This document shows positions 19,710-35,749 of a stretch of DNA of 64,000 nucleotides, in pieces. Source of the stretch: Sulfuricurvum kujiense DSM 16994 (lineage in GTDB: Bacteria; Campylobacterota; Campylobacteria; Campylobacterales; Sulfurimonadaceae). Every line of letters starts with the position of its first letter. The first letter of the stretch is position 1. The translations under genes and the position numbers were made by a program. The notes under the pieces were generated by a model. The model had not been told where the DNA came from and made no database searches. It worked only from the letters and a program-made list of their open reading frames with translations. The stretch is from positions 868,001 through 932,000 of the forward strand of contig NC_014762.1 in assembly GCF_000183725.1 (NCBI RefSeq). The letters are read 5' to 3'.

Positions 19710-22700
19710 ATGTCAAAAGCAATCGGTGAGGTAGCCCGTATTGAGGGAGAATTTATCGTCAAATCAGGTGACGGTACGTTAAAAATTCTAGCTCCCGGAA
19801 CACTTCTTTTCGAAGATGACGTAATCCAAGGACGAAGCGGAAGTCAGGAACTTGAGATCCAGCTTGTCAACGGTGATACGAAGATAATCGGGGCAGATGA
19901 AGTGATTACTCTCAGTGAAAGTGTAATCACTAAAGAGCCTCCTATGGTTGAAGAGAGAGAAGTTGACCCTCAGCAAATCGTAGAGGCTGTGAATTCAGCT
20001 GAGTGGGTTGTCAACGTAGATCCGGAATTGATCACAGGAGAGATTGAACCGGAACATTTTGTCGCCAGAGCATTTCTTGAACACGATACGGTAGCTGTTG
20101 AAACTCCGCTGGGATTTAACCCGAATGCTGACATTGCATCTGTTGATTCTGCAACAGATGTGCCGGTAGAGCCGGCGGCAGCAGAAGCCCAAGCGGCAGC
20201 AGAAGCCCAAGCGGCAGCAGAAGCCCAAGCGGCAGCAGAAGCCCAAGCGGCAGCAGAAGCCCAAGCGGCAGCAGAAGCCCAAGCGGCAGCAGAAGCCCAA
20301 GCGGCAGCAGAAGCCCAAGCGGCAGCAGAAGCCCAAGCGGCAGCAGAAGCCCAAGCGGCAGCAGAAGCCCAAGCGGCAGCAGAAGCCCAAGCGGCAGCAG
20401 AAGCCCAAGCGGCAGCAGAAGCCCAAGCGGCAGCAGAAGCCCAAGCGGCAGCAGAAGCCCAAGCGGCAGCAGAAGCCCAAGCGGCAGCAGAAGCCCAAGC
20501 GGCAGCAGAAGCCCAAGCGGCAGCAGAAGCCCAAGCGGCAGCAGAAGCCCAAGCGGCAGCAGAAGCCCAAGCGGCAGCAGAAGCCCAAGCGGCAGCAGAA
20601 GCCCAAGCGGCAGCAGAAGCCCAAGCGGCAGCAGAAGCCCAAGCGGCAGCAGAAGCCCAAGCGGCAGCAGAAGCCCAAGCGGCAGCAGAAGCCCAAGCGG
20701 CAGCAGAAGCCCAAGCGGCAGCAGAAGCCCAAGCGGCAGCAGAAGCCCAAGCGGCAGCAGAAGCCCAAGCGGCAGCAGAAGCCCAAGCGGCAGCAGAAGC
20801 TGCATTGCTGGCAGATAACGCGGAAGCTCCGAACCTCTCTCGCATGTCGGTCAATGCAGTCAGAGAAGTGACGGAAGAACGTACGGTAGTCGATGCCGAA
20901 GCGACGGAAGCGGCCGGTATTTACGAACGAGACGGGCATTATTACAAAAACGAGACCCGTGAGGTTGCGACCAATACCGTCGATGTAGCAGCACTTAAAG
21001 CAATGGGTTATACATTAGGGACGGACGGAAATATCTATACGATCAATACGACAGGAGCCAAGGTACAGATCGAGCAGGAAGCGACCCGTACGGTCACGAA
21101 AGTGGTCGCCGTCGATCCGATCATGAAAACGGCTACTGAGGCAACTACCGTCATGGTTGCAGGTGATGAGATTGAAAAAAATCCGGGAACGATTGCCAAA
21201 AATACGACCCAAACGATCGATTTGGGGGCTTCGACGAAAAACATCGAGATCGATTTTAATGCATTTAACCAAGGTTCGATGAAAATCGATTTTTTAAAGA
21301 ACGGTGAAGTGGTTGAAAGTGTCAGCCAGAATCATGTCGGAAATAAAGCCGTCGGATACGGTTTCGGTCAGGAGTTTGACAGTGTTCGTTTGAGTGCACA
21401 GGAGAAAGCGGTTCAAATCGAGTCGATTAAAGGGCGTGAAGCGGCTCAAGAAGTGACCGTTGAAGCGGGTGGATTGGTCCCCGATACCGAAGCGATGGAA
21501 GCGGCGGGAATCACATGGATCGATACGGTGAGCCAAACAATCGTTCAAACCCCGACCAAGACGGGGAGTGAAACCAATGATCTCCAAAATATAGGGAATG
21601 TCGGAAATAATGATGCCAAAGGGTTCAATCCCGAAGATCGTGAAACGAGTCAGGTATTTGATTTCGGATCGGCTTTGGCTCATCAGAAAGTTTCTGTGAC
21701 GGTTGATTTGACCGCATCGGGGAGCTGGGATAATAACGCGACTTCTACCCACGATATTTTGACAGTGAGTGCTAACGGCGAACCGCTTCAGACCTATAAT
21801 TATACAAGCAGTAACAGCGATTATAACGCCGCTGTCGCTAAGGGTGAGAGTGCAGAAAAAATCGGGGCAAAGACCTATACCTACGATGTGATCCTGGATG
21901 AAAACGGTCAAGCACAGTTGGATTTTATGGTTGCTTCCACCGCTACGGACGAAGTGGTTAATGTCCAAAATATAACGGCTCAATATGAAGGGTATACCGG
22001 TTACGTCCAAACCGTACAAGAGACTGAAACCTATATGGAGACGGTGTTTGTCGATGCTCCCGGTACACTCGTCGATCCTGCCGATATCCCTGGCGGTGTA
22101 CCAATGGTTATGGAAAATCAGACGGTAGAGGTAGAGGTAGAGCCGATTATGACGACCGAAGAGGTTGTGGTCGGATATGAATACGATATTAGCTATGACG
22201 TGGGGCTGAGCGATACCGACGGCAGTGAAACGTTGGGTAATTTAATGTTGAGCAACCTTCCGGAAGGGGTTCAGCTCCATAATACCGACGGAGAAGAGAT
22301 AGCACCTAATGAAGACGGCAGCTACTCGATTGATTCACAAACGGGTTCAACGGTTTCAATGACATTGGTCACGACTCATGAGATTACGTCTGAGCAGTTT
22401 GAGGGTGTTAGTGCCAGTATCACTTCTTATGACAATGACGATCCTTCTACCGCAACCACCACGGTAACGGGTGATACCGAATCGATCGATTTCTCCGGTT
22501 TGTCAGATTTAGCGCACGATAGTGGCGGTACGGCAGAAAATTCTTTGTCGGAAGAGATCGATTTAGGTCAAATCTTTACGCTGGATCAAGATCCGAATGT
22601 AGCGCTGTTTGAAGAAGATTTGACGGCTGTCGATGCTACCGCAGTCACAACAGATGCTACTGCGGTAACGACGAATACGGCAGAAGATTTAACCGGAGTA

Positions 22701-22763
22701 TATATTGATGCTTCTGATGTCGGTTTGGTTGTAGAACAGCCGGTAGATGTTACGGCAACATAA
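19710..22763 (+). CDS. LapA-like surface adhesin/type I secretion substrate with retention module
   Basis: 1017-residue acidic protein. Residues 1-110 match the retention-module pattern of LapA-like adhesins (MSKAIGEVARIEGEFIVKS, then LAPGTLLFEDDVI and VNGDTKIIGADEVITLS), the part thought to hold the protein in the outer-membrane channel. Residues 156-359 are 34 identical AAAEAQ hexamers. The middle holds beta-rich domains, and about 830-930 resembles a T1SS-143/cadherin-like repeat (LSDTDGSETL, LSNLPEGVQL). I see no RTX nonapeptides. The acidic, threonine-rich C-terminus may be the secretion signal. GAGGAG precedes the ATG. It is short for the family. Confidence 0.82.
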   Translation: MSKAIGEVARIEGEFIVKSGDGTLKILAPGTLLFEDDVIQGRSGSQELEIQLVNGDTKIIGADEVITLSESVITKEPPMVEEREVDPQQIVEAVNSAEWVVNVDPELITGEIEPEHFVARAFLEHDTVAVETPLGFNPNADIASVDSATDVPVEPAAAEAQAAAEAQAAAEAQAAAEAQAAAEAQAAAEAQAAAEAQAAAEAQAAAEAQAAAEAQAAAEAQAAAEAQAAAEAQAAAEAQAAAEAQAAAEAQAAAEAQAAAEAQAAAEAQAAAEAQAAAEAQAAAEAQAAAEAQAAAEAQAAAEAQAAAEAQAAAEAQAAAEAQAAAEAQAAAEAQAAAEAQAAAEAQAAAEAQAAAEAQAAAEAALLADNAEAPNLSRMSVNAVREVTEERTVVDAEATEAAGIYERDGHYYKNETREVATNTVDVAALKAMGYTLGTDGNIYTINTTGAKVQIEQEATRTVTKVVAVDPIMKTATEATTVMVAGDEIEKNPGTIAKNTTQTIDLGASTKNIEIDFNAFNQGSMKIDFLKNGEVVESVSQNHVGNKAVGYGFGQEFDSVRLSAQEKAVQIESIKGREAAQEVTVEAGGLVPDTEAMEAAGITWIDTVSQTIVQTPTKTGSETNDLQNIGNVGNNDAKGFNPEDRETSQVFDFGSALAHQKVSVTVDLTASGSWDNNATSTHDILTVSANGEPLQTYNYTSSNSDYNAAVAKGESAEKIGAKTYTYDVILDENGQAQLDFMVASTATDEVVNVQNITAQYEGYTGYVQTVQETETYMETVFVDAPGTLVDPADIPGGVPMVMENQTVEVEVEPIMTTEEVVVGYEYDISYDVGLSDTDGSETLGNLMLSNLPEGVQLHNTDGEEIAPNEDGSYSIDSQTGSTVSMTLVTTHEITSEQFEGVSASITSYDNDDPSTATTTVTGDTESIDFSGLSDLAHDSGGTAENSLSEEIDLGQIFTLDQDPNVALFEEDLTAVDATAVTTDATAVTTNTAEDLTGVYIDASDVGLVVEQPVDVTAT
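20175..20800 (+). repeat. 34 perfect tandem copies of an 18-bp unit (plus a partial 35th)
   Basis: The unit GCGGCAGCAGAAGCCCAA repeats without any visible base change from 20175 to 20786, giving 34 full copies, then 14 bases of a 35th before the sequence diverges. It encodes (AAAEAQ)34 in the adhesin-like protein, predicted to be a long alpha helix. The unit is a multiple of three, so gain or loss of copies would change length without breaking the frame. Confidence 0.97.
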
Positions 22764-24462: not shown

Positions 24463-27396
24463 ATGAATACGGAAGAGATCGGGGCGATATTAAACGATAA
24501 AAAGAAGCTCCTCTCCGAAATCTATTTTGAGCTCCAAGCGGCGTGTGAAGCCAAATACGGCCCCGATACCCTCGTCATCATCGAAGTGGGATCGTTTTTC
24601 GAGGTGTATGAAGTAAACAACGAGGAGATGAAAATCGGCAAGGCGAAAGAAGTCGCCGAGTTTCTCAACATCCAGCTCACCCGCAAAAATAAAACGATTC
24701 TCGAAAACTCGATCCAAAACCCTCTCCTCGCAGGGGTTCCGACCGTCTCGATCGAGCGGTATCTCAGCCGTTTGGTACAATCGAAAAAATACACGATCGT
24801 CCTCGTCCGACAGCAGGGGGAAGTCCCAAACATCCGCCGCTATATCTCCAATATCATCTCTCCGGGGACGAACTTCGACTACATCGCCGAAGCGAGCGAA
24901 AACTATATCGCATCACTGTTGATCGATCAAAACAACGGGGTTTATTCCATCGGTTACTCCGCCATCGATGTAGGGACGGGAAAAACTCTTATTAACGAGA
25001 TACACGGAACCCGCGAAGATAAAACGTATGCCCTCGATGAAGTGTTTACCCTCCTTCAAAGCTATCAAACCTCCGAAGTGGTCGTGACGTTTTGTGCGGG
25101 GGATATCGACCGGGATGAGGTGAGCCGCTATCTGGAGATCAAAAATCACCACCGTACCTCGATGAACGAAAAACGGCTGAAGATCGATTACCAAAACGAA
25201 CTGTTTGAACGTATCTATCAGATCCGCTCGCTTCTCAGCCCGATCGAGTATCTCGATCTCGAACGCTATCCGTATGCTTCCGAATCGCTCTGTATCCTCA
25301 TCAATGTCATTATCGATCATGACGCGGGGATCATCGAGAAGATGAACCGCCCGACGTTTTTGGGAACCAACCGTTACATGTATCTGGGGAACAATGCGGC
25401 GGAGCAACTGGGGATCATATCCCGCGATGCCGATGAGATGACGCTGCTCAAACTCATCGACAAAACGTCGACGGCGATGGGGAAACGGCTGCTGCGTGAG
25501 AGGCTCCTGAACCCCATCTGCGATGCGAAGCTCCTCGAAGAGCGCTTTGACCTGATCGACAAGATGGGCGAGCACATCGCGCCGCTGGAGACGAAGCTCA
25601 AAGAGGTATACGATCTGGAGCGGATACTTCGCCGCTTGAAACTCGGGAAACTCCACCCGTTTGAGCTGGCCTATTTTTATGCCTCATTGAGTGCGGCGGA
25701 GAGCTTGTTCGAAGAGGCGGATCGTCTAAAGATCGGTTATGACAAATCGAGCGCGCAGGAGTGCCGTCTGTGCGCTTCCGAGCTGCGGCGGATATTTAAT
25801 ATCGAAGCGTGCGCGAAGTTTCGGCGCGATCAGGTGGATGAGAACCTCTTTAACGAAGGGATCGATCCCTCCATCGATGCGCTGGAGCAGCTTCAGAGCA
25901 ACAACGTATCGAAATTGAATGCCATCATTTCCCATATCGATACTTTTTTTGAGGGGGAGGGGTCATACGCTTCTATCGGATGGCTGGAGAGCGAGGGGTA
26001 TCATCTCCTGATGACCCGTAACCGCTACGTGAGCATCGAAGAAGCGCTTTACAACAGTTTTTTCACCTTAGAAGGACAGCACTATTTCTTCCGCGATTTT
26101 CAGGTGCGCAAACTCAAAACGGCGGTTAAACTCACCTCCAATCTCCTCGATGAACTCTCCATCGAAAATGCGGGGGCCAAATCGCGGATGATCGCACAGG
26201 TGAAAGAGCGCTACCGCGAGCATCTCGAAGAGATCGAACGGCGCTTTTCCCATGCAATCGAGCATCTGATCTCTTTTCTCGCCGTAGTGGACGTCAGTCT
26301 CAGCGGTGCGAAGTGTGCGAAGCAGTATCGCTACGTCAGACCTTCCATCGTTCCGTCGCCTAAAGCGTTTATCGAGACGGTCGGCCTACGCCACCCGTTG
26401 ATCGAATCGCGAGAAGAGAACGGTATCTTTGTTCCGAACGATCTCTTTTTGGGTGCGGCAGATCAGCACACCTATGAAGAACATCCGACGATCGAAAACG
26501 GCGAAGATGTCAAAGGGGTGCTTCTCTACGGAATCAACTCCAGCGGTAAATCGTCCTTGATGAAGAGTATCGGGCTCTCTGTCGTGATGGCGCAGGGGGG
26601 ATTTTTCGTCCCGTGCGCCATGATGAGGTTTTCTCCCGTCGATAAACTCCTCACCCGTATCGTCTCCAAAGACAATCTCTATAAAGGGCTGTCGACGTTT
26701 GCGGTCGAGATGCTGGAGCTGCGAAACATCTTCAACCGTGCGAGCGAGAATACCCTTATCCTCGGGGATGAGATCAGCCACGGAACGGAGACCGAATCGG
26801 CGCTGGCGATCGTGGCGAGTGCGATCCTAAAACTGCGCGAGATCGGGAGTATGTTTATCTTTGCGACCCATCTGCATCAGCTTTCAAGCTTGAGTGAAAT
26901 CCAAAAAGCGAAAGAGATCGTATTACTCCATCTGGGGGTCTATTACGACGAGGCGAGCGACCGCCTCGTCTATGACCGCAAGCTCAAAAGCAGCAGCGGC
27001 TCGACATTGTACGGGCTGGAATTTGCCAAATCGCTCCACATGGATGAGACCTTTTTGAAAAAGGCGTACGAAATCCGAGGACGCATTACCGACAAAACCC
27101 ATGAAGCCTCGATGCTGAAGCGGGAGAAAAAGAGCCGCTACAATACGAAACTCTACCTCACCAAATGCGCGCTGTGCGATGAGGCGGTGGATGAGGTACA
27201 CCATATCGTCCCTCAGGCGAATGCGGATGACGGCGGCTCCATCGGCCATTACGGGATGAATCACCGCTATAATTTGATACCACTTTGTTCGAAGCACCAC
27301 AAGCTCGTGCACGAGGGCAAAATCGCCATTCATGGGTTCATCATGGGCGAGGATGGTTTACGGCTCAGTTATAGTGAAACGAGGAGTGATTTATAA
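24463..27396 (+). CDS. MutS7-type DNA mismatch protein with C-terminal HNH nuclease domain
   Basis: 977 residues. The N-terminal mismatch-recognition domain keeps the Phe-x-Glu motif (VGSFFEVYE near residue 43). The core and lever region follow, then the ATPase with Walker [10 protein letters not shown] (690-698), Walker B LGDEIS (Asp769, Glu770) and ATHLHQL. Residues about 900-956 are an HNH/McrA-like domain: Cys902, Cys905, His913-His914, Asn937, Cys942, His945-His946 and His950. This MutS-HNH fusion defines MutS7, known from Campylobacterota, giant viruses and octocoral mitochondria, and supplies nicking without MutL. The gene is intact; a partial copy of its 3' end lies at 35594-35749, across the hsd island. 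Confidence 0.93.
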
Positions 27397-27640: not shown

Positions 27641-27768
27641 ATTTTTGTCAAAGAATAAATATACAGTTATAGTGATTATTTATTTTGAAATATTTATTTT
27701 TTAAACTTTAGATTGACATTGTTTTGGCTAAAATAGTGACTACTTATAGCAAAGTGGTGGAATCGATA

Positions 27769-30120
27769 ATGGCACTCTCTGAATCAGATACTCGTTCAAA
27801 ACTCATTGACCCAAGAATCAAAGAGAGTGAATGGAACGAATCCCATATCGTTAGAGAGTATTTCTTTACGGATGGACGTAAACTTATCGGTAACAAAAGA
27901 GGTAAGCAATATTTTGTGGATTACCTTCTTACCTACAAAAATACCAACCTAGCCATTATCGAAGCCAAAGCTGAAAACAAAGACCCTTTGGATGGATTAC
28001 AACAATCTATTAACTATGCAGAAAAACTCCGAATCGATTTTGTATACACCACTAACGGACATAAAATTTACGAACACTCGTTGAAAGAGGGCAATGGTAG
28101 ATGGATCGAGAATTATCCGACACCAACAGAACTATTCGAGCGAAAATACGGACAGCCCCAAACCAAACAAGAAGCAATCATCACCTATCCTTTTCACATC
28201 GAAGGGAGTATGAAACCTCGTTTCTATCAACAAATCGCCGTTCAAAAAACAATTGAAGCGATAGCAGACGGTAAAGATAGAATCTTATTAACGTTGGCAA
28301 CTGGTACGGGTAAAACCTATATCTCTTTTCAAATCGTGTACCGTTTATTCCAATCCAAATGGAATCGAGACGGAAGTGACCGTAGACCAAAGGTATTGTT
28401 CTTAGCAGATAGAAACGTCTTGGCAGATCAATCGATGAATACATTTAATCCATTGGAAAAAGATTGTGTAAGAATCAACGGTAAAGAGATTAAAAAACGA
28501 GGGGGAAAAGTCCCCACAAATGCCAATGTCTTTTTTGCAATTTATCAATCCATTGCAGAGAATAAAAACAGAGTAATCGAAGTATCCGAAGAAGATGGAG
28601 AGGATGATGTAAAAGGATATTATCAACAATATCCATCAAACTTTTTTGATTTAATTATTATCGATGAGTGTCACAGAGGAAGTGCAAACGATGAGAGTAG
28701 TTGGAGAGAGATCCTAAATCATTTCAAATCAGCTGTTCATTTAGGATTGACGGCAACACCAAAGAGAGATGATAACGGTGATACCTACAAATATTTTGGT
28801 GATCCTATCTATGAATATTCACTCAAAGATGGAATCAATGATGGATTCCTCACACCATATAAAGTTAAAAGAATTCAAACCAATATTGATGAATATAGAT
28901 TTGATCCTAATGATATTATTACGGGTGAGCTAGAAAGCCAAATTGTTACACTAGAGCAGTTTGAAAAGCAAATCGTAATCCCCAAACGAACTGAATTGAT
29001 AGCAAAAACGGTTTTAGAAAATATGAATCCGATGGATAAAACAATCGTATTCTGTGTAAATCAACAACACGCTTCCGATATGAAAATCGCAATCGATAAA
29101 TTTAAAACGATCAAAGACAATAATTATTGTGTCAGGGTAACATCGGATGAAGGTGACATAGGTAGAAACTTTTTAGAGATGTTTCAAAACAACGATAGAG
29201 ATATCCCAACCATTCTAACATCATCCAAAATGTTAACTACTGGTGTTGATGCAAAGAATGTTAGAAACGTTGTATTAACCGCACCTATCAAGTCAATGAC
29301 GGAGTTTAAACAGATTATTGGACGAGGTACGAGGGTATACGAGGGAAAAGACTTTTTTACCATTATCGATTTCGTAGGGGCAACCAATTTATTTTATGAT
29401 GATAGATGGGATGGAATTCCCGAAGAAGTTAGTGGAGGAAAAGGAGAAACATCACCAACTCCACGACCTCCAAAAGAAGAAGATGAAGATAGTAATACGG
29501 GTGGAGGAGATAATACTATAATTGTTGATCCTCCAATAAGAGAAAAAGTGACCATCGATATCAGAGGCAAAAAGCTAAAAGTCATTAATATCGAAACAAC
29601 CTATGTCGGTGAAGACGGTATCCCACTCAAAACCGAAGATTATTTGGAATTGCTGATCGGTGTGTTAGGTAAATTTTACAATAACGAAGATGGATTAAGA
29701 GAGATATGGAGTAACCCGAAAAATCGTAAAGATTTACTGAATAAACTCAAAGAGATGAATATCGATGAATCTCAATTGGATGACCTAAAACAGATATTTG
29801 AAGCACAAGATAGTGATATTTACGATGTATTGGCACATCTATCATTCAATATGGATATTAAGAGCCGTAATGAAAGAGTTATAGCGGTTGAAAACTCTGA
29901 TTTCGTAGAGAAGTATCACAATGAAAAAGCAAAACAGTTTATTGAATTCATATTAGATCGATACCGTAAAGACGGTGTAAAAGAGTTGGATGATGATAAG
30001 CTAGGTAAGTTGGTGGATTTGAGCGGATTGGGAACCATCAGAGAAGTTGCGGTTAACTTTGGTGGGATACCGCAGATGGGGCATGAGTATTTAGAGTTAC
30101 AAAAAGAGATTTATAAGTGA
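27769..30120 (+). CDS. hsdR: Type I restriction enzyme R subunit (EcoEI/HsdR family)
   Basis: Motor and nuclease subunit of a type I restriction system. The PD-(D/E)xK nuclease is at the N-terminus (Asp51, Glu65-x-Lys67 in IIEAKAE). The SF2 helicase motor has Walker A ATGTGKT with Lys182, DECH at 299-302, GLTATPKRD and GRGTRVYEG. An acidic proline-rich linker (PTPRPPKEEDED) leads to the EcoEI-type C-terminal domain. I chose the ATG at 27769 (783 residues), which gives the usual family start ESDTRSKLIDPRI and has GGTGGA upstream; an in-frame TTG at 27724 would add 15 residues without a ribosome site. Composition is clearly more A+T-rich than mutS7. Confidence 0.93.
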   Translation: MALSESDTRSKLIDPRIKESEWNESHIVREYFFTDGRKLIGNKRGKQYFVDYLLTYKNTNLAIIEAKAENKDPLDGLQQSINYAEKLRIDFVYTTNGHKIYEHSLKEGNGRWIENYPTPTELFERKYGQPQTKQEAIITYPFHIEGSMKPRFYQQIAVQKTIEAIADGKDRILLTLATGTGKTYISFQIVYRLFQSKWNRDGSDRRPKVLFLADRNVLADQSMNTFNPLEKDCVRINGKEIKKRGGKVPTNANVFFAIYQSIAENKNRVIEVSEEDGEDDVKGYYQQYPSNFFDLIIIDECHRGSANDESSWREILNHFKSAVHLGLTATPKRDDNGDTYKYFGDPIYEYSLKDGINDGFLTPYKVKRIQTNIDEYRFDPNDIITGELESQIVTLEQFEKQIVIPKRTELIAKTVLENMNPMDKTIVFCVNQQHASDMKIAIDKFKTIKDNNYCVRVTSDEGDIGRNFLEMFQNNDRDIPTILTSSKMLTTGVDAKNVRNVVLTAPIKSMTEFKQIIGRGTRVYEGKDFFTIIDFVGATNLFYDDRWDGIPEEVSGGKGETSPTPRPPKEEDEDSNTGGGDNTIIVDPPIREKVTIDIRGKKLKVINIETTYVGEDGIPLKTEDYLELLIGVLGKFYNNEDGLREIWSNPKNRKDLLNKLKEMNIDESQLDDLKQIFEAQDSDIYDVLAHLSFNMDIKSRNERVIAVENSDFVEKYHNEKAKQFIEFILDRYRKDGVKELDDDKLGKLVDLSGLGTIREVAVNFGGIPQMGHEYLELQKEIYK

Positions 30121-30157
30121 AATATATAGTATTTAAATTATAGAAGGAAAAAACATT

Positions 30158-31987
30158 ATGAGCACTGAATATCTAAAAACAGATTATGAAAAACTAGCAT
30201 ATTTTGTAAATCTTTTAAAATCAAGAGCATCGGGTAAAAATGTATCTGAGAGAGAATATACAGAGCTTAGAGAAGAGCTTTTGTCAAATAAAATATTGCA
30301 GAGTGTATTGCCAACTTTTATAAAAACAAATGGGGAACTAAACTCTTTTTGGAGATTTATTAAAGATAAATTTTCTACTTATGATGAACGAACAGAATTT
30401 CTAACAAAAGAATTTGAACCAATTTTGCGAATGCTAGAAAATAGTCAAACTTCATTACCCGCACTACAAAAATATGCACACACCAAAGACTCTATAAAAC
30501 AAGAGCTAAAAGAGTATTTTATATCACATAATGTACTTTTAAATATATATGGAGAGTTTACACTTACAGACAAAAATATAGGAAATGGCGGTACATCAGA
30601 GGTTAAAGGCTTTGAGTTTGGTGGTAAACAGTATGCTATTAAGTTTTTACTTGAAGATGTATCACAAAAAGAGAGTCAAGCTTTCAAAAGATTTAAACAA
30701 GCTCATCTAAACTTAGTAGGTATCCAGCATAGCGGTGCAATTTTACCACAGTTGCATTTTGATGTTTTGAATATAGCACATATTAAAGTGCCTTATATCG
30801 TGATGCCAAGAGTTGAGCAGACACTGAAATCTTTTGTCAAAGAAAAAAAGAAAAAAGGTGAATTTTCGTTTGAGTTATTTGAGAAGATATTTGACAATTT
30901 GCTTCATATCATAGACTCTATACACTTGCTGAGTATTATCCATAGAGATATAAAACCTGAAAATATATTTTTATTTGAACGGAAATTTGTACTTGGTGAC
31001 TTTGATATTGCGAAGTTTGATAAGGATTTATATACTAAGCTTATAGAAACTAGTCCCACAGATAGATTGGCGAATTATCTTTTCTCCGCTCCCGAGCAAG
31101 TTAAGGTTGATACAGATGAATTAACTACAAGTGCAGATTGGTATGCTTTTGCTCAAGTACTTTATTGGATTATTACTGAAACTGCTCTAAGAGGACAATC
31201 AAAAATACAGTTAACTCATATTGATTCACGATATAGTAAATATGAAAGCTTGATAGCAAATCTTTTATCTGAAAATCCCCAAGATAGATTTAGCTCAAAA
31301 AATGAGATACTTGAGCATTTGGAGTCAAAAAAGAAATTAAGCCCAGATCAGATTTTATTAGAGTTTGAGGACATTATTTTTAAGCATATGAGTCATTTAG
31401 GACAAAGTGGACAAGGCTTTAAAAAGTTTGAGGATATTGACTCTATCAATGAAATCATGCAGGACTTGAAAAATGGAGAGTCGAGATTAAATTATTGGCT
31501 TTCGCAAGGCTACTCAGATTTAGGTATAAATAGAATAAAAAAGTTGGGTTTATGTGATAGATGTTGGCTAATTGGTTATAACGAAGTAAAAATAAAATCG
31601 ATATGGATATTTAAACATTATTACAACTTAGGATGTAGTTGCATAATAATAGAAACAGACAATTTAGAGTCAAGTGGAGTATATGAAATAAAACCAGAAT
31701 ATGTCAGTGAAGAGTTTGGATTGTTTAATGGACACTATATCAAGAGGGGTGAGGTTGATGTTGGCTGGGCTGAAATCGATGGCAAAAAAGTCAAGCTTAA
31801 TGGTAAAGCTGAAATAAGAGTACGAATCTTAAAAGAAGATATTTTTTTCTTAGCTCCTCAAAATGGACCATTGGTAAGGCATGATGGTATTATAGATAGT
31901 ATTTATAAAAGTTATCAAGAAGTTAAGGCTTTGAATGAACGATTACTTGAGCCTTTGAGCGGCATTAAGAAAAATATGGGTTATTGA
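30158..31987 (+). CDS. Hanks-type Ser/Thr protein kinase embedded in the type I RM locus
   Basis: 609 residues. A helical N-terminal region (1-130) precedes a complete kinase domain: glycine loop GNGGTSEV (142-149), ATP-binding Lys162 in YAIKF, catalytic loop HRDIKPEN (His262, Asp264, Lys266, Asn269), metal-binding Asp281 in a DFD variant of DFG, APE at 311-313 and ADWYAF near 326. The C-terminal 200 residues include a cysteine-containing segment (LCDRCWL, LGCSCI) and a beta-rich part of unknown function. No membrane segment. AAGGA lies before the ATG. It sits between hsdR and hsdM, and the composition matches the island. A role in phage defence or in controlling restriction is inference. Confidence 0.88.
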   Translation: MSTEYLKTDYEKLAYFVNLLKSRASGKNVSEREYTELREELLSNKILQSVLPTFIKTNGELNSFWRFIKDKFSTYDERTEFLTKEFEPILRMLENSQTSLPALQKYAHTKDSIKQELKEYFISHNVLLNIYGEFTLTDKNIGNGGTSEVKGFEFGGKQYAIKFLLEDVSQKESQAFKRFKQAHLNLVGIQHSGAILPQLHFDVLNIAHIKVPYIVMPRVEQTLKSFVKEKKKKGEFSFELFEKIFDNLLHIIDSIHLLSIIHRDIKPENIFLFERKFVLGDFDIAKFDKDLYTKLIETSPTDRLANYLFSAPEQVKVDTDELTTSADWYAFAQVLYWIITETALRGQSKIQLTHIDSRYSKYESLIANLLSENPQDRFSSKNEILEHLESKKKLSPDQILLEFEDIIFKHMSHLGQSGQGFKKFEDIDSINEIMQDLKNGESRLNYWLSQGYSDLGINRIKKLGLCDRCWLIGYNEVKIKSIWIFKHYYNLGCSCIIIETDNLESSGVYEIKPEYVSEEFGLFNGHYIKRGEVDVGWAEIDGKKVKLNGKAEIRVRILKEDIFFLAPQNGPLVRHDGIIDSIYKSYQEVKALNERLLEPLSGIKKNMGY

Positions 31988-32081
31988 TCCGTCATTCCTC
32001 ACTATCAAAGTTACTAGGTGATAGTAGAAATAAAGATGGTTCAAAAATTAATAAATTACCTATATTGATAAGGAACAATAA

Positions 32082-33569
32082 TTGGAATCAAAAATTAATC
32101 GAATAACCGACATCCTTAGACGGGATGACGGTATCAGTGGTGCGATGCACTATACGGAGCAAATTAGTTGGATACTATTTTTAAAATTTCTCAATGATCT
32201 CGAAGACTCAAAAGCAGATGAAGCATTACTTATCGGTAAAGACTACAACTATATTTTAGATGATAAATTCAAATGGAGCAATTGGGCGGTTCCAAAAGTA
32301 AATGGGAAAATCGATCTCATCAATGCTAAAAGCGGAGCTGATCTACTGGATTTCGTAAACAAAGAGCTATTTTCGTATCTTAAGGGATTCAAAAACATTA
32401 CTGAAGACCCAAAATCGATCAAATATAAAATCGGTGCAATTTTTGAATACTTAGACAACCGTATCGCAAATGGTCATACTATCAGAGAGATATTGGATAT
32501 TATCGATGAGTTAGACTTCCACAACCAATCCGATCTTTTTCAACTCTCAATCATTTATGAAAAACTGCTCAAGGACATGGGAAGTGATGGTGGAAACAGT
32601 GGGGAGTTTTATACTCCTCGTCCACTTATCAAAGTAATGACGGATGTGGTTAATCCACAAGTCGGACAAACGATCTATGACCCTGCTGTAGGGAGTTGTG
32701 GATTTTTAATCGAAGCGTATAACCATATTCGATATCTCGATGCAAAAGAGAATAAACAACGAGATATATCTGTAAATCAGTTAAAATTTTTGAGCGAAGA
32801 TACATTTTTCGGAAATGAGAAAACACCATTGTCCTATGTCATGGGTGTTATGAATATGATTCTACATGGAATCGAATCCCCGAATATCTCTAAGACCAAT
32901 ACGCTGACCAAAGATATCCGAGGGCTAGAAGAAAAAGATCGTTACGATATTATCCTAGCAAATCCACCATTCGGTGGAAAAGAAAAAGAACAAATTCAAC
33001 AAAATTTCCCTATCAAGTCCAATGCTACAGAGCTACTATTTTTACAACATATGATGAATAGTTTAAAAGTAAATGGAAGATGTGGTGTAGTAATTCCAGA
33101 GGGTGTTTTATTCCAAACTAATAATGCGTTCCAAGCGGTCAAACAAGAGCTTTTAGAACGTTTTAATGTTCACACGATACTTAGTTTGCCATCAGGGGTG
33201 TTTTTGCCGTACAGTGGCGTTAAAACGAATGTCATCTTTTTCGATAGAAACGGATCAACATCGGATATATTTTATTACGAAGTCAATCCATTATCAAAAC
33301 TCACAAAGAATAAGCCTATTACCTATGATCACTTCACCGAATTTTTAGCCGTATGGAAAGAGAGAAAGATTACTGACAACAGTTGGATAGTAAATATTAA
33401 CGATATCAAAGATTTTGATATATCGGCAAAAAATCCAAATCGAAATGAAACCATCGATCATAAATCACCGATTGAATTGGTGGAAAATATCAAACTTAAC
33501 AATGAAGAAATCAATGATTTGATGAATGAGATTGAAGCGATATTGATAGGAAAAGATATTAATGAGTGA
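32082..33569 (+). CDS. hsdM: Type I DNA methyltransferase M subunit
   Basis: N6-adenine methyltransferase subunit that pairs with HsdS for modification and with HsdR for restriction. HsdM_N helical domain in residues 1-140, then the methyltransferase domain with the SAM-binding motif DPAVGSCGFL (a variant of the common DPaCGTGGFL) and the catalytic ILANPPFGG with Asn294. The 495 residues are full length. Translation starts at TTG 32082, with AAGGA eight bases upstream. The last eight bases overlap hsdS. Confidence 0.94.
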   Translation: MESKINRITDILRRDDGISGAMHYTEQISWILFLKFLNDLEDSKADEALLIGKDYNYILDDKFKWSNWAVPKVNGKIDLINAKSGADLLDFVNKELFSYLKGFKNITEDPKSIKYKIGAIFEYLDNRIANGHTIREILDIIDELDFHNQSDLFQLSIIYEKLLKDMGSDGGNSGEFYTPRPLIKVMTDVVNPQVGQTIYDPAVGSCGFLIEAYNHIRYLDAKENKQRDISVNQLKFLSEDTFFGNEKTPLSYVMGVMNMILHGIESPNISKTNTLTKDIRGLEEKDRYDIILANPPFGGKEKEQIQQNFPIKSNATELLFLQHMMNSLKVNGRCGVVIPEGVLFQTNNAFQAVKQELLERFNVHTILSLPSGVFLPYSGVKTNVIFFDRNGSTSDIFYYEVNPLSKLTKNKPITYDHFTEFLAVWKERKITDNSWIVNINDIKDFDISAKNPNRNETIDHKSPIELVENIKLNNEEINDLMNEIEAILIGKDINE

Positions 33570-34782
33570 GTTATATGAACTTCCGAATGGGTGGGTATAT
33601 AAACAATTAGATGAAATTGTATTCAGAATGCACCAAGGGGTAAATACTGCTGCAGATAAAGTTGAATTTTATTCTGATGGTTATCCTATTATTCAGAGTA
33701 GAAATATTACTTCTGGTGAATTACATTTTGAGAACATTAAGTATGTTAATGAAGAAGATTGGAATTTATATGAAAAAAAATACAAACCAAAAATAAATGA
33801 TATTTTATTGTCAAATATTGGAACAATTGGTAAAAGTATTATTGTAAATCAAAATGATAATTTTTTAATTCATTGGAATATATTTTTGATTGAACCACAG
33901 ACAGAGCTTGTATCAGCTCAGTTTTTGAAAGTATTTTTAGATAAATTAGATAATGATAGTTACTATGATCAATTTTTAAAAGGTGCTACAGTAAAATTTG
34001 TAAGTAAAAAGAATTTAGCATCTACTTTAATTCCGCTTCCGCCACTCCAAGAACAGCAACGAATTGTTTCAAAACTCGATTCACTTTTCGAAAAAATCGA
34101 TAAAGCAATCTCTCTTCATCAGAAAAATATTGATGAAGCTGATGTGTTTATGGGAAGTGTTTTGAATGAAGTTTTTGAGGAGATGGATGGTCAATACAAA
34201 AAAGAAAAACTAGAGAAATTTGACCGAAAAATGTCTGCTGGTGGGACTCCTTTGCGGGCAAAAAATGAATATTGGGATGATGGCACAATCGAATGGTTTA
34301 GTTCTGGAGAGTTGAATCAACAATTTACATTACCAGCAAAAGAACGAATAACTGACGAAGGTCTTAAAAATTCATCAGCAAAGCTTTTTTCTAAAGGTAC
34401 ATTATTAATTGGTATGTACGATACTGCCGCAATGAAAATGTCCATATTGCATACTGATGGTAGCTGTAATCAAGCAATCGTTGGAATCAAACCAAATGAA
34501 GATGAATTAAACATATTCTTTTTGAAATATCAACTAGAATATTTAAAACCAAAGATTTTAGAAGAACGTCAAGGTGTTCGTCAACAAAACCTTAACTTAT
34601 CAAAAATTAAAAATGTTGAGATCGAACTTCCTCCACTTCCAATCCAACAAAAAGTTGTAGTTTATTTAGATTCTGTATCCGAAAAAATGGAAAAAGTTAA
34701 AACGATTCAAAAAGAAAAAATGGAAAGTCTCAAAGCGTTGAAAGCGTCTATCTTGGATAAAGCGTTTAGGGGTGAGTTGTAA
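33562..34782 (+). CDS. hsdS: Type I restriction-modification specificity subunit
   Basis: DNA-recognition subunit of 406 residues with two target-recognition domains. TRD1 spans about 5-150 and ends before the conserved helix PLPPLQEQQRIVSKLDSLFEKI. TRD2 spans about 215-355 and ends before PPLPIQQKVVVYLD and a long helix finishing KALKASILDKAFRGEL. It overlaps hsdM by eight bases upstream, and its stop overlaps the next gene by one base (TAATG). The recognition sequence cannot be predicted by eye. Confidence 0.94.
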   Translation: MSELYELPNGWVYKQLDEIVFRMHQGVNTAADKVEFYSDGYPIIQSRNITSGELHFENIKYVNEEDWNLYEKKYKPKINDILLSNIGTIGKSIIVNQNDNFLIHWNIFLIEPQTELVSAQFLKVFLDKLDNDSYYDQFLKGATVKFVSKKNLASTLIPLPPLQEQQRIVSKLDSLFEKIDKAISLHQKNIDEADVFMGSVLNEVFEEMDGQYKKEKLEKFDRKMSAGGTPLRAKNEYWDDGTIEWFSSGELNQQFTLPAKERITDEGLKNSSAKLFSKGTLLIGMYDTAAMKMSILHTDGSCNQAIVGIKPNEDELNIFFLKYQLEYLKPKILEERQGVRQQNLNLSKIKNVEIELPPLPIQQKVVVYLDSVSEKMEKVKTIQKEKMESLKALKASILDKAFRGEL

Positions 34783-35315
34783 TGGATTTGAATGCTATCG
34801 GAATAGGTGCTATCATAGGCGCAACAGTTGTTGCAGGGACTAATTTGTATATCTTCATACACAATGGTAAAAAAGCTGAGATAAAAGAGCGCATAGAGAA
34901 GCTATATAGTCCGTTATATGAGTATTATTTAGAAAATATGAGATATGGGTCAGAGGAGCCATATAATAACTTTCTAGCACTCAAGAAGATATACATAAAA
35001 AACAGCATCTACGCATCTGATATATTAAAAGAACTTTTTGATGAGGTTCTTGATAAAGAATCAGAGTTTATGGAATTACCCGAAAATGAACGAGCTATAA
35101 AAATGGATGAAATACTTTTCAGAGATGACAAAGATCAAGAAAATGCTTTCAAGAATATGATGACTAGAATTGGTGGCTGGATAGATAGAGAGCATGATGA
35201 ACTACAGATATATTATGCAAAAGGGCTGATAGGGCGATTTTTTTGGAGACTTGAAATAAACAATAACTCTTCTTATGCCAGAGGAGCTTTACCTGCGGGA
35301 CGTAGCTTTTCATAA
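34782..35315 (+). CDS. Small membrane-anchored protein of unknown function after hsdS
   Basis: 177 residues with one N-terminal membrane segment (about 7-27), then a basic and acidic helical domain (KKAEIKERIEKLYSPLYEYY). No family is recognised. The ATG overlaps the hsdS stop, so it belongs to the hsd operon and is probably translated with it. The last 14 residues (SYARGALPAGRSFS) differ in style from the rest and are encoded by locally G+C-richer DNA, which may be a replaced 3' end or a small palindromic insert. A membrane partner for the kinase or RM system is possible but unproven. Confidence 0.65.
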   Translation: MDLNAIGIGAIIGATVVAGTNLYIFIHNGKKAEIKERIEKLYSPLYEYYLENMRYGSEEPYNNFLALKKIYIKNSIYASDILKELFDEVLDKESEFMELPENERAIKMDEILFRDDKDQENAFKNMMTRIGGWIDREHDELQIYYAKGLIGRFFWRLEINNNSSYARGALPAGRSFS

Positions 35316-35593: not shown

Positions 35594-35749
35594 ATGAAAA
35601 AAAATTATCGCTACAACCTCATTCCGCTGTGTGCCAAACACCACCGTTTGGTTCATGAGGGGAAAATTGCCATCCACGGATTTGTGATGAGCGAGGACGG
35701 TTTACGGCTGAGTTACAGCGAAAATACAACACTAAAGGATGATCTGTGA
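35594..35749 (+). pseudogene. Remnant copy of the mutS7 3' end (second half of the HNH domain)
   Basis: 51 codons from an ATG in [16 protein letters not shown] to the stop at 35749. It matches the last residues of the intact MutS7 (Asn937 onward: [31 protein letters not shown]) but differs at many third positions and several residues, so it is a diverged copy, not a recent duplicate. The CxxC half of the HNH is missing. Its stop overlaps the GTG start of the next gene, which suggests this is the original chromosomal 3' end, left behind when the island arrived. Confidence 0.85.

Follow-up and report, generated by a model that had tools for sequence, protein, structure and literature searches.

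Defence genes lodged inside type I restriction-modification (RM) operons are known from several systems, including prrC, the rlo genes of Campylobacter jejuni (RloC, RloF), tgvAB and darTG2, and a 2024 preprint by Payne et al. reportedly treats such embedded defences. As described in the accessible parts of the respective papers, PrrC is silenced by EcoprrI and activated by T4 Stp (PMC2610378, PMC3874165, PMC12707154), the protection provided by tgvAB persists with an HsdR nuclease mutant and is weaker without the whole cluster (PMC11411939), and the embedded site of darTG2 was called a potential recombination hotspot in the darTG2/RptR paper (PMC12255303). Small N-terminal modules found on AbiJ, TIR and kinase proteins (AbiJ-NTD1-5) are likewise an established concept, and in the accessible text they were proposed to bind a viral target and to restrain the toxin domain (Anantharaman et al., 2013, PMC3710099). 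Here we describe a protein kinase gene located between hsdR and hsdM in Sulfuricurvum kujiense DSM 16994. The analysed stretch, referred to as the window, comprises 64,000 nt (NC_014762.1, 868,001-932,000 of the forward strand), and its own numbering is used for coordinates. Like prrC, rlo, tgvAB and darTG2, the kinase gene is situated between the hsd genes of a type I locus. The available text on the known cases reports no embedded protein kinase, and the lineage of the window differs in showing ten cargo sets in one interval.

Results of our comparative analyses suggest that the gene is likely to encode a captured, self-contained anti-phage kinase of the abortive-infection type and to be an exchangeable cargo of the hsdR-hsdM interval. 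The content of this interval (the slot) differs from strain to strain in this hsdR lineage, with hsdR and hsdM conserved, and consists mostly of defence- or toxin-type genes. The N-terminal module of the protein, which has no named family and for which we coined the name KN, is joined to effectors of three types (TIR, AbiJ-type Abi_C, and kinase). The kinase and its C-terminal domain are also found in proteins lacking KN, and the stretches viewed around these contain no hsd gene. As the slot is variable and the N-terminal part is common to two other kinds of cell-suicide proteins, the kinase is probably an exchangeable anti-virus weapon and not a regulator of restriction. Judged from sequence, it would be cargo by its position and would group with suicide effectors by its KN module, and its relatives lie away from hsd genes.

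The hsdR-hsdM interval was compared among close relatives of the operon. In the 228 genomes of the family, HsdR was found at E ≤ 1e-100 in 38, of which 17, the window included, showed at least 67% identity. The survey covered the window and 15 of the 16 other genomes (G103, with hsdR split over two contigs, was left out); all belong to a single family, and several genomes are incomplete. hsdM was reached in 12 of the 16 loci (HsdR 66-100% identical), and ten of these, including the window, contained cargo. In locus L187, hsdR and hsdM are 184 bp apart, and comparison with L191 and L196 shows that the very start of a Fic coding sequence survives in this gap; L195 is reordered (hsdR-93aa-hsdS-hsdM). 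In the four further loci the contig stops inside (L189, L193, L194) or just past (L184) a different open reading frame (ORF). Thus, ten different cargo sets, some sharing a gene, are present in one hsdR lineage (Table 1). The 15 relatives carry 28 slot ORFs of at least 100 amino acids (aa), a count that excludes the HsdS of L195; 17 were scanned against Pfam and 5 were assigned by similarity. According to our own grouping, a defence- or toxin-type domain is present in eight of the nine filled relatives, L183 being the exception.

In blastn comparisons, DNA homology with each of five relatives stops where hsdR ends (30114-30123); with the four that extend to hsdM (L182, L183, L185, L187), it restarts at the beginning of that gene (32076-32082). 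The slot sequence alone gave no match at E ≤ 1e-3 in any of the 15 relatives. Unrelated cargo accompanies HsdR and HsdM proteins that are 92-97% identical, and no cargo is present beside the 83%-identical HsdR of L187. The window and L182, L183 and L184 (HsdR 90-92% identical) occupy a common site at a mutS tail and carry four unrelated cargos. Cargo is probably exchanged through homologous recombination within the conserved genes on either side, hsdR and hsdM.

We also noted some features around the slot. To the left of the low-GC island lies a mutS-like gene (24463-27396) with a terminal HNH domain. This HNH tail recurs at the right edge of the island, and three stretches resembling it were found in L183; the 3′ end of the mutS-like gene seems to be where the island inserts. 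Degenerate repeats of approximately 30 nt (AACATAG...CTATGTTAAAAAA type, recognized by eye) were observed just upstream of hsdM in L186, L187, L190, L191, L192 and L196. They are absent from the window, and could be a recombination or regulatory sequence.

The kinase gene itself is intact. The earlier note on this DNA, made from its letters alone, had proposed a complete Hanks-type kinase between hsdR and hsdM that resembles the hsd genes in composition, strand and spacing, and both proposals were borne out. The ORF starts with ATG and runs uninterrupted over its whole length, and Pfam Pkinase matches residues 138-387 with 69.5 bits vs. a cut-off of 31.7. All five classes of kinase motifs are present: a glycine loop (GNGGTSEV, 142-149), AIKF with Lys162, HRDIKPEN with Asp264, the DFG-type Asp, and APE (311-313). 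The DFG position reads DFD in the window kinase and in its nearest relative (L042), and DMG, DFG, DFG and DLG in the other four relatives of alignment A5. In VIA-align comparisons with solved kinases, the predicted kinase domain gave Z values of 20.1-21.5 among the 50 matches listed, mostly over residues 120-395. The gene lies on the strand of hsdR, hsdM and hsdS, all of them open frames, with gaps of 37 bp (hsdR-kinase) and 94 bp (kinase-hsdM). The GC content is 0.314 for the kinase, 0.364 for hsdR, 0.353 for hsdM and 0.307 for hsdS, and stays at 0.31-0.36 when the 177-aa ORF is included, vs. 0.445 for the window. HsdR scores 898 bits with the NCBIfam EcoAI/FtnUII model vs. a cut-off of 550. 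Promoter and terminator scans gave results at chance level and were not used.

Whole-protein searches of plasmid records split the kinase in two, as residues 1 to approximately 105 and the remainder match different proteins. The first part matches the N-termini of plasmid proteins annotated as "nucleotide-binding" or "abortive infection family". Pfam analysis of nine KN fusions revealed TIR (of the CAP12/Pycsar type) in four and Abi_C in five, and PADLOC assigned the C-terminal part to PDC-S35 in two of two KN-TIR and to AbiJ in three of three KN-Abi proteins scanned. Among 112 KN ORFs, duplicates included, we counted 59 of Abi_C/AbiJ type, 47 with TIR, 3 with a kinase (the window counted twice and L042) and 3 short ones with no recognisable partner. 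After removal of duplicate loci, KN is joined to TIR or AbiJ-type domains in 98 other loci (44 KN-TIR and 54 KN-AbiJ) vs. to a kinase in the window and the 54%-identical L042 only. Altogether, 101 KN places were confirmed in genome contigs (80 kept) and 13 in viral contigs. In the phylum of the window, KN was found at E ≤ 1e-6 in 6 of 397 genomes, and once in the window's own genome.

Alignments A2 and A10 show invariant or near-invariant residues in KN (G26, R38, P52, F64, W65, I68, Y75, R78), and AlphaFold2 predicts residues 11-90 with block means of 93-97 (predicted local distance difference test, pLDDT). As an N-terminal module common to AbiJ-type, TIR and kinase effectors, KN resembles the AbiJ-NTD modules, which are small, N-terminal and joined to AbiJ HEPN or TIR and, in the case of NTD1 and NTD3, also to protein kinases (PMC3710099, accessible text). 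However, none of the Pfam models came near its cut-off on ten KN fragments, and AbiJ_NTD5 (PF18865) gave no match in the window's genome at E ≤ 1 and none among the ten fragments at E ≤ 10. KN would be a further AbiJ-NTD or one of NTD1 and NTD2. Foldseek retrieved nothing from the PDB at E ≤ 0.001. The best VIA-align Z was 5.5, a value that for helical bundles may reflect merely a common arrangement, and searches of PDB sequences with the KN profile gave short matches, with two designed proteins at the top.

KN is mostly distant from RM genes. Using 13 RM query proteins, an RM-type gene was found within 3 kb of KN in 4 of 44 KN-TIR and 5 of 54 KN-AbiJ loci; with the window Hsd proteins alone as queries, the counts within 5 kb were 0 of 44 and 3 of 54. 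These counts leave out the ORFs in nine duplicate loci, the kinase ORFs and the three short ORFs, and retain near-identical viral contigs (e.g., L032, L034, L035), and many of the contigs are short. The idea that KN is an adaptor docking onto RM complexes was rejected on this ground. The KN-AbiJ genes of L117, L027 and L118, which had prompted this idea, do overlap or abut RM-locus genes. L117 (4754-15144, Campylobacterota) is a type I locus with the order hsdM, a YhcG-like ORF (by eye), hsdS, KN-AbiJ, further genes and hsdR; its KN-AbiJ gene overlaps its neighbours by 4 bp on both sides, making it another restriction locus that carries cargo. An Escherichia coli KN-AbiJ gene (L019, 9983-10744), present in 41 of 5,426 complete E. 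coli genomes, lies amid phage-type genes (by eye). In L031, L032, L034, L036 and L037, KN-AbiJ genes were observed at the extreme end of viral contigs of 12-17 kb, which suggests a fixed cargo site in a satellite-like element.

Beyond KN, the protein matches stand-alone kinases of approximately 520-535 aa in plasmid records. Such proteins, composed of the kinase and the C-terminal domain without KN, were found in Moraxella, beside qatD; on Leclercia and Pantoea plasmids; in G076, from the same genus as the window, next to a gene with Upx-like similarity (489 bits vs. a cut-off of 1900); and in viral contig L122, amid prophage morphogenesis genes (by eye). None of them has hsd genes within the stretch viewed. 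The only full-length relative found, 54% identical over 609 aa, is that of L042, a 5.4-kb contig binned as Gracilibacteria in which the kinase is followed by genes for NrdG, NrdD and nucleotide kinases. The bin is doubtful, since its ORFs read well in code 11 and Gracilibacteria use another code. The full-length kinase matched 9 plasmid records and no phage record. The L042 protein matched 87 plasmid records, none at 80% coverage, and mostly over the kinase domain among the 20 listed. Kinase profile A6 retrieved 28 loci from viral contigs; the match extends well into the C-terminal domain in L122 and L123 alone. In the same contigs, single-protein scans with the window kinase, L011 and L042 gave no relative, and the scan with L122 recovered no contigs beyond those of L122 and L123. 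A distant blastn search of the E. coli genomes with the Pantoea kinase gave no relative.

The C-terminal domain contains five columns that are invariant in all seven sequences of alignment A7, none of them a cysteine, and its predicted structure is of mixed confidence (pLDDT 43-94 by block). Among the Pfam, NCBIfam and PADLOC matches listed (25 of 32 for PADLOC), none extends beyond residue 417 except a TACC_C match far below its cut-off (residues 358-444, 11.1 vs. 29.9 bits). The earlier description of a region matching no known domain is thus correct for named families, but a wider family of kinases has this region as a conserved domain. The label "cysteine-rich" fared less well: all four cysteines of the protein (466, 469, 493, 495) lie in this part, but there are only four, and the CxxC pair is retained in L042 and absent from the other four kinases of A5. 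As the cysteines are not conserved beyond this nearest relative, the idea of a zinc-binding domain was dropped. Searched alone, the region matched none of the 72,556 plasmid records and none of the 50,697 phage records; as a single sequence it was found in 1 of 228 family genomes (the window's own), and as a profile in 2 of 397 phylum genomes (the window's and G076).

Several families of defence kinases were compared with the protein. The PADLOC models compared, all of Hanks kinases, are PD-T4-6 (94.3 bits at best, residues 132-393 only, with no cut-off given by PADLOC here), MkoA (84.5 bits, 130-401) and Stk2 (66.7 bits, 61-397). These matches cover mainly the kinase, and the C-terminal domain lies outside the models listed. 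The MADS system is similar in having a kinase (MAD6) adjoining type I-like M and S subunits (MAD2, MAD5). However, the NCBIfam scores are 67.4 bits vs. the equivalog cut-off of 460 for MAD6, 87.7 vs. 720 for MAD2 and 31.8 vs. 400 for MAD5, and the window hsdR passes the EcoAI/FtnUII cut-off instead. For BREX PglW the score is 24.1 vs. an equivalog cut-off of 990 bits. In the accessible parts of the literature (including PMC11411939, PMC2610378, PMC3874165, PMC12707154, PMC3710099, PMC12255303 and PMC5183652), we found no type I RM operon with an embedded kinase, no description of the KN module and no report of serial cargo replacement in one hsdR-hsdM lineage. Embedded defence genes are already known from type I operons; the architecture of the window kinase appears to be new.

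Table 1. Features of the kinase locus in the window, and cargo of the hsdR-hsdM slot in related loci.
Feature	Coordinates	Strand	Description	Basis
Three-part kinase	30158..31987	+	609 aa; KN module, Hanks kinase and conserved C-terminal domain	ORF, Pkinase, motifs, homologues
KN module	30158..30475	+	residues ~1-105; predicted six-helix domain	alignments A2, A10, AlphaFold2, fusions
Hanks-type protein kinase domain	30521..31339	+	residues ~122-394; K162, D264, DFD 281-283 in place of DFG	Pfam, PDB sequence matches, VIA-align
C-terminal domain	31340..31984	+	residues 395-609; conserved in stand-alone kinases	alignment A7
hsdR	27724..30120	+	798-aa type I restriction subunit of the EcoAI/FtnUII family; listed with a TTG start	NCBIfam NF046051, Pfam ResIII, EcoEI_R_C
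hsdR-hsdM slot	30121..32081	.	1961 bp; no similar DNA in the 15 related operons compared	
hsdM	32082..33569	+	N6-adenine methylase; 495 aa	Pfam N6_Mtase, HsdM_N
hsdS	33562..34782	+	406 aa; two Methylase_S stretches	Pfam
177-aa ORF after hsdS	34782..35315	+	no family above cut-off; relative at equivalent place in L183	cluster of two
Second copy of HNH tail of upstream mutS-like gene	35594..35749	+	right edge of low-GC island	translation, sequence, blastn to relatives' tail region
L182 slot cargo			Tmn	PADLOC, 284 bits
L183 slot cargo			260 aa, no family	
L185 slot cargo			PIN; HATPase-like protein scoring slightly under the cut-off	
L186 slot cargo			zeta-toxin-like, AbiD, Tmn-like protein	
L188 slot cargo			C5 methylase, HATPase protein, two others	
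L190 slot cargo			AAA_15 (OLD/Ari-like), Fic, two short ORFs	
L191 slot cargo			350 aa, 125 aa, Fic	similarity
L192 slot cargo			Abi_2	similarity
L196 slot cargo			DUF4297-HerA and Fic	

Two explanations would tie the kinase to its restriction neighbours. The earlier note had proposed that it phosphorylates HsdR or HsdM and thereby switches restriction, which its adjacency to these genes and the common strand, and these only, would favour. As HsdR and HsdM proteins of 92-97% identity coexist with other cargo and, in L187, a less similar HsdR with none, and as relatives of the kinase occur in stretches without hsd genes, this proposal found no support, and we regard it as very improbable. A guard of the PrrC kind, in which the HsdRMS complex keeps the kinase silent and a phage anti-restriction attack on the complex releases it, would agree with the position, of the same kind as that of prrC inside its type I operon, and with the control of PrrC by EcoprrI and Stp as given in the accessible parts of the papers cited above. 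The scarcity of RM-type genes within 3 kb of KN (4 of 44 and 5 of 54 loci), the unrelated cargos held by the same slot and the stand-alone relatives without an hsd partner in the stretches viewed argue against it, making such a guard unlikely, though less so than phosphorylation of HsdR or HsdM. A sensor of failed restriction, also suggested in the earlier note, would be PrrC-like in this sense, and the kinase may still be one.

A kinase phosphorylating a repressor upstream of immune operons was reported for CapK/CapS (PMC13373217, accessible part), and a regulatory kinase acting in this manner could be imagined here. However, no recognised repressor gene is present among the family matches of the island (the 177-aa ORF has no family), the kinase gene lies inside the operon and not upstream, and its N-terminal module is that of effectors, so that we give this explanation hardly any weight. 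A functionless passenger retained in the slot by chance is scarcely more probable: decayed cargo does occur in slots, as exemplified by the Fic remnant of L187, but the window ORF is full-length and keeps every catalytic motif and the residues conserved in its family. The other proposal of the earlier note, an abortive-type defence kinase, gained support from the presence of KN on TIR and AbiJ-type effectors, from a slot rich in defence and toxin genes, and from the two stand-alone relatives adjoining Upx-like and Qat anti-phage genes. The suggested positional link to RM or defence genes held in part: the relatives show no tie to type I RM, but a number of them adjoin defence genes.

Several observations weigh against an exchangeable defence kinase. 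The exact architecture is known from two cases only, and the second, L042, has NrdG, NrdD and nucleotide kinase genes as neighbours and no hsd. The Leclercia and prophage stand-alone relatives have no recognised defence neighbour, and the named defence-kinase models score far under their curated cut-offs where such exist. In the close relatives, 6 of the 28 slot ORFs were not identified, and the defence share of eight in nine stands without a base rate from other intervals. In more distant operons, L211, L212 and L214 (HsdR approximately 40% identical) carry one common helicase-type pair, and hsdR and hsdM adjoin with no cargo in L209 (from the window's own genome), L213, L215 and L217. Four gammaproteobacterial plasmid operons (Shewanella, two Vibrio and Salinivibrio; HsdR 51-53% identical) each have an AAA ATPase in the interval. 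As the interval is less variable in these distant operons, free exchange is shown for the close lineage only. Sixteen further fetched loci say nothing on the slot, since no HsdM like that of the window was found near hsdR. Eight of the 53 plasmid records with HsdR matches were inspected; besides the AAA-ATPase operons, these comprise Aliarcobacter and V. campbellii p1 plasmids with adjacent hsdR and hsdM, a V. gigantis plasmid with another gene order, and Aquincola with no annotated hsdM in the stretch. The place after hsdS in the AAA-ATPase operons was seen to vary, with SIR2 in L219, an ATP-binding protein in L221, Shedu and an ATP-binding protein in L222, and a lone short hypothetical ORF in L220. 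Elsewhere in the window, a large ORF (19710-22763) contains a long array of near-perfect AEAQAA repeats, which also opens long ORFs on the mirror strand that are surely spurious.

If the kinase is indeed captured abortive-infection cargo, KN would sense a phage product or a phage-caused change, by analogy with the proposal made for AbiJ-NTD modules in the accessible text of PMC3710099, and would hold the kinase latent until infection. The freed kinase could then phosphorylate a host or phage target and halt growth, so that the population might be protected when restriction alone fails. Sharing of the operon would serve co-expression and co-transfer, and not physical control of HsdR or HsdM. 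A broader reading, which we put forward tentatively and hold a little short of an even chance, is that the hsdR-hsdM interval of this EcoAI-type lineage may be a dedicated slot trading whole anti-phage cassettes through recombination in the restriction-gene flanks. The cassette present here would combine the phage-sensing KN module with a kinase bearing a new C-terminal domain, one sensor thus serving three interchangeable killing mechanisms.

Should the slot reading be true, the genes of unknown function between hsdR and hsdM in this lineage would be ready-made defence candidates, such as the 260-aa ORF of L183 and the 350-aa ORF of L191, both without a Pfam match at E ≤ 0.01. As a shared putative sensor, KN on TIR, AbiJ-type and kinase effectors should answer one phage trigger, which bears on the question of what N-terminal modules of this kind recognise.

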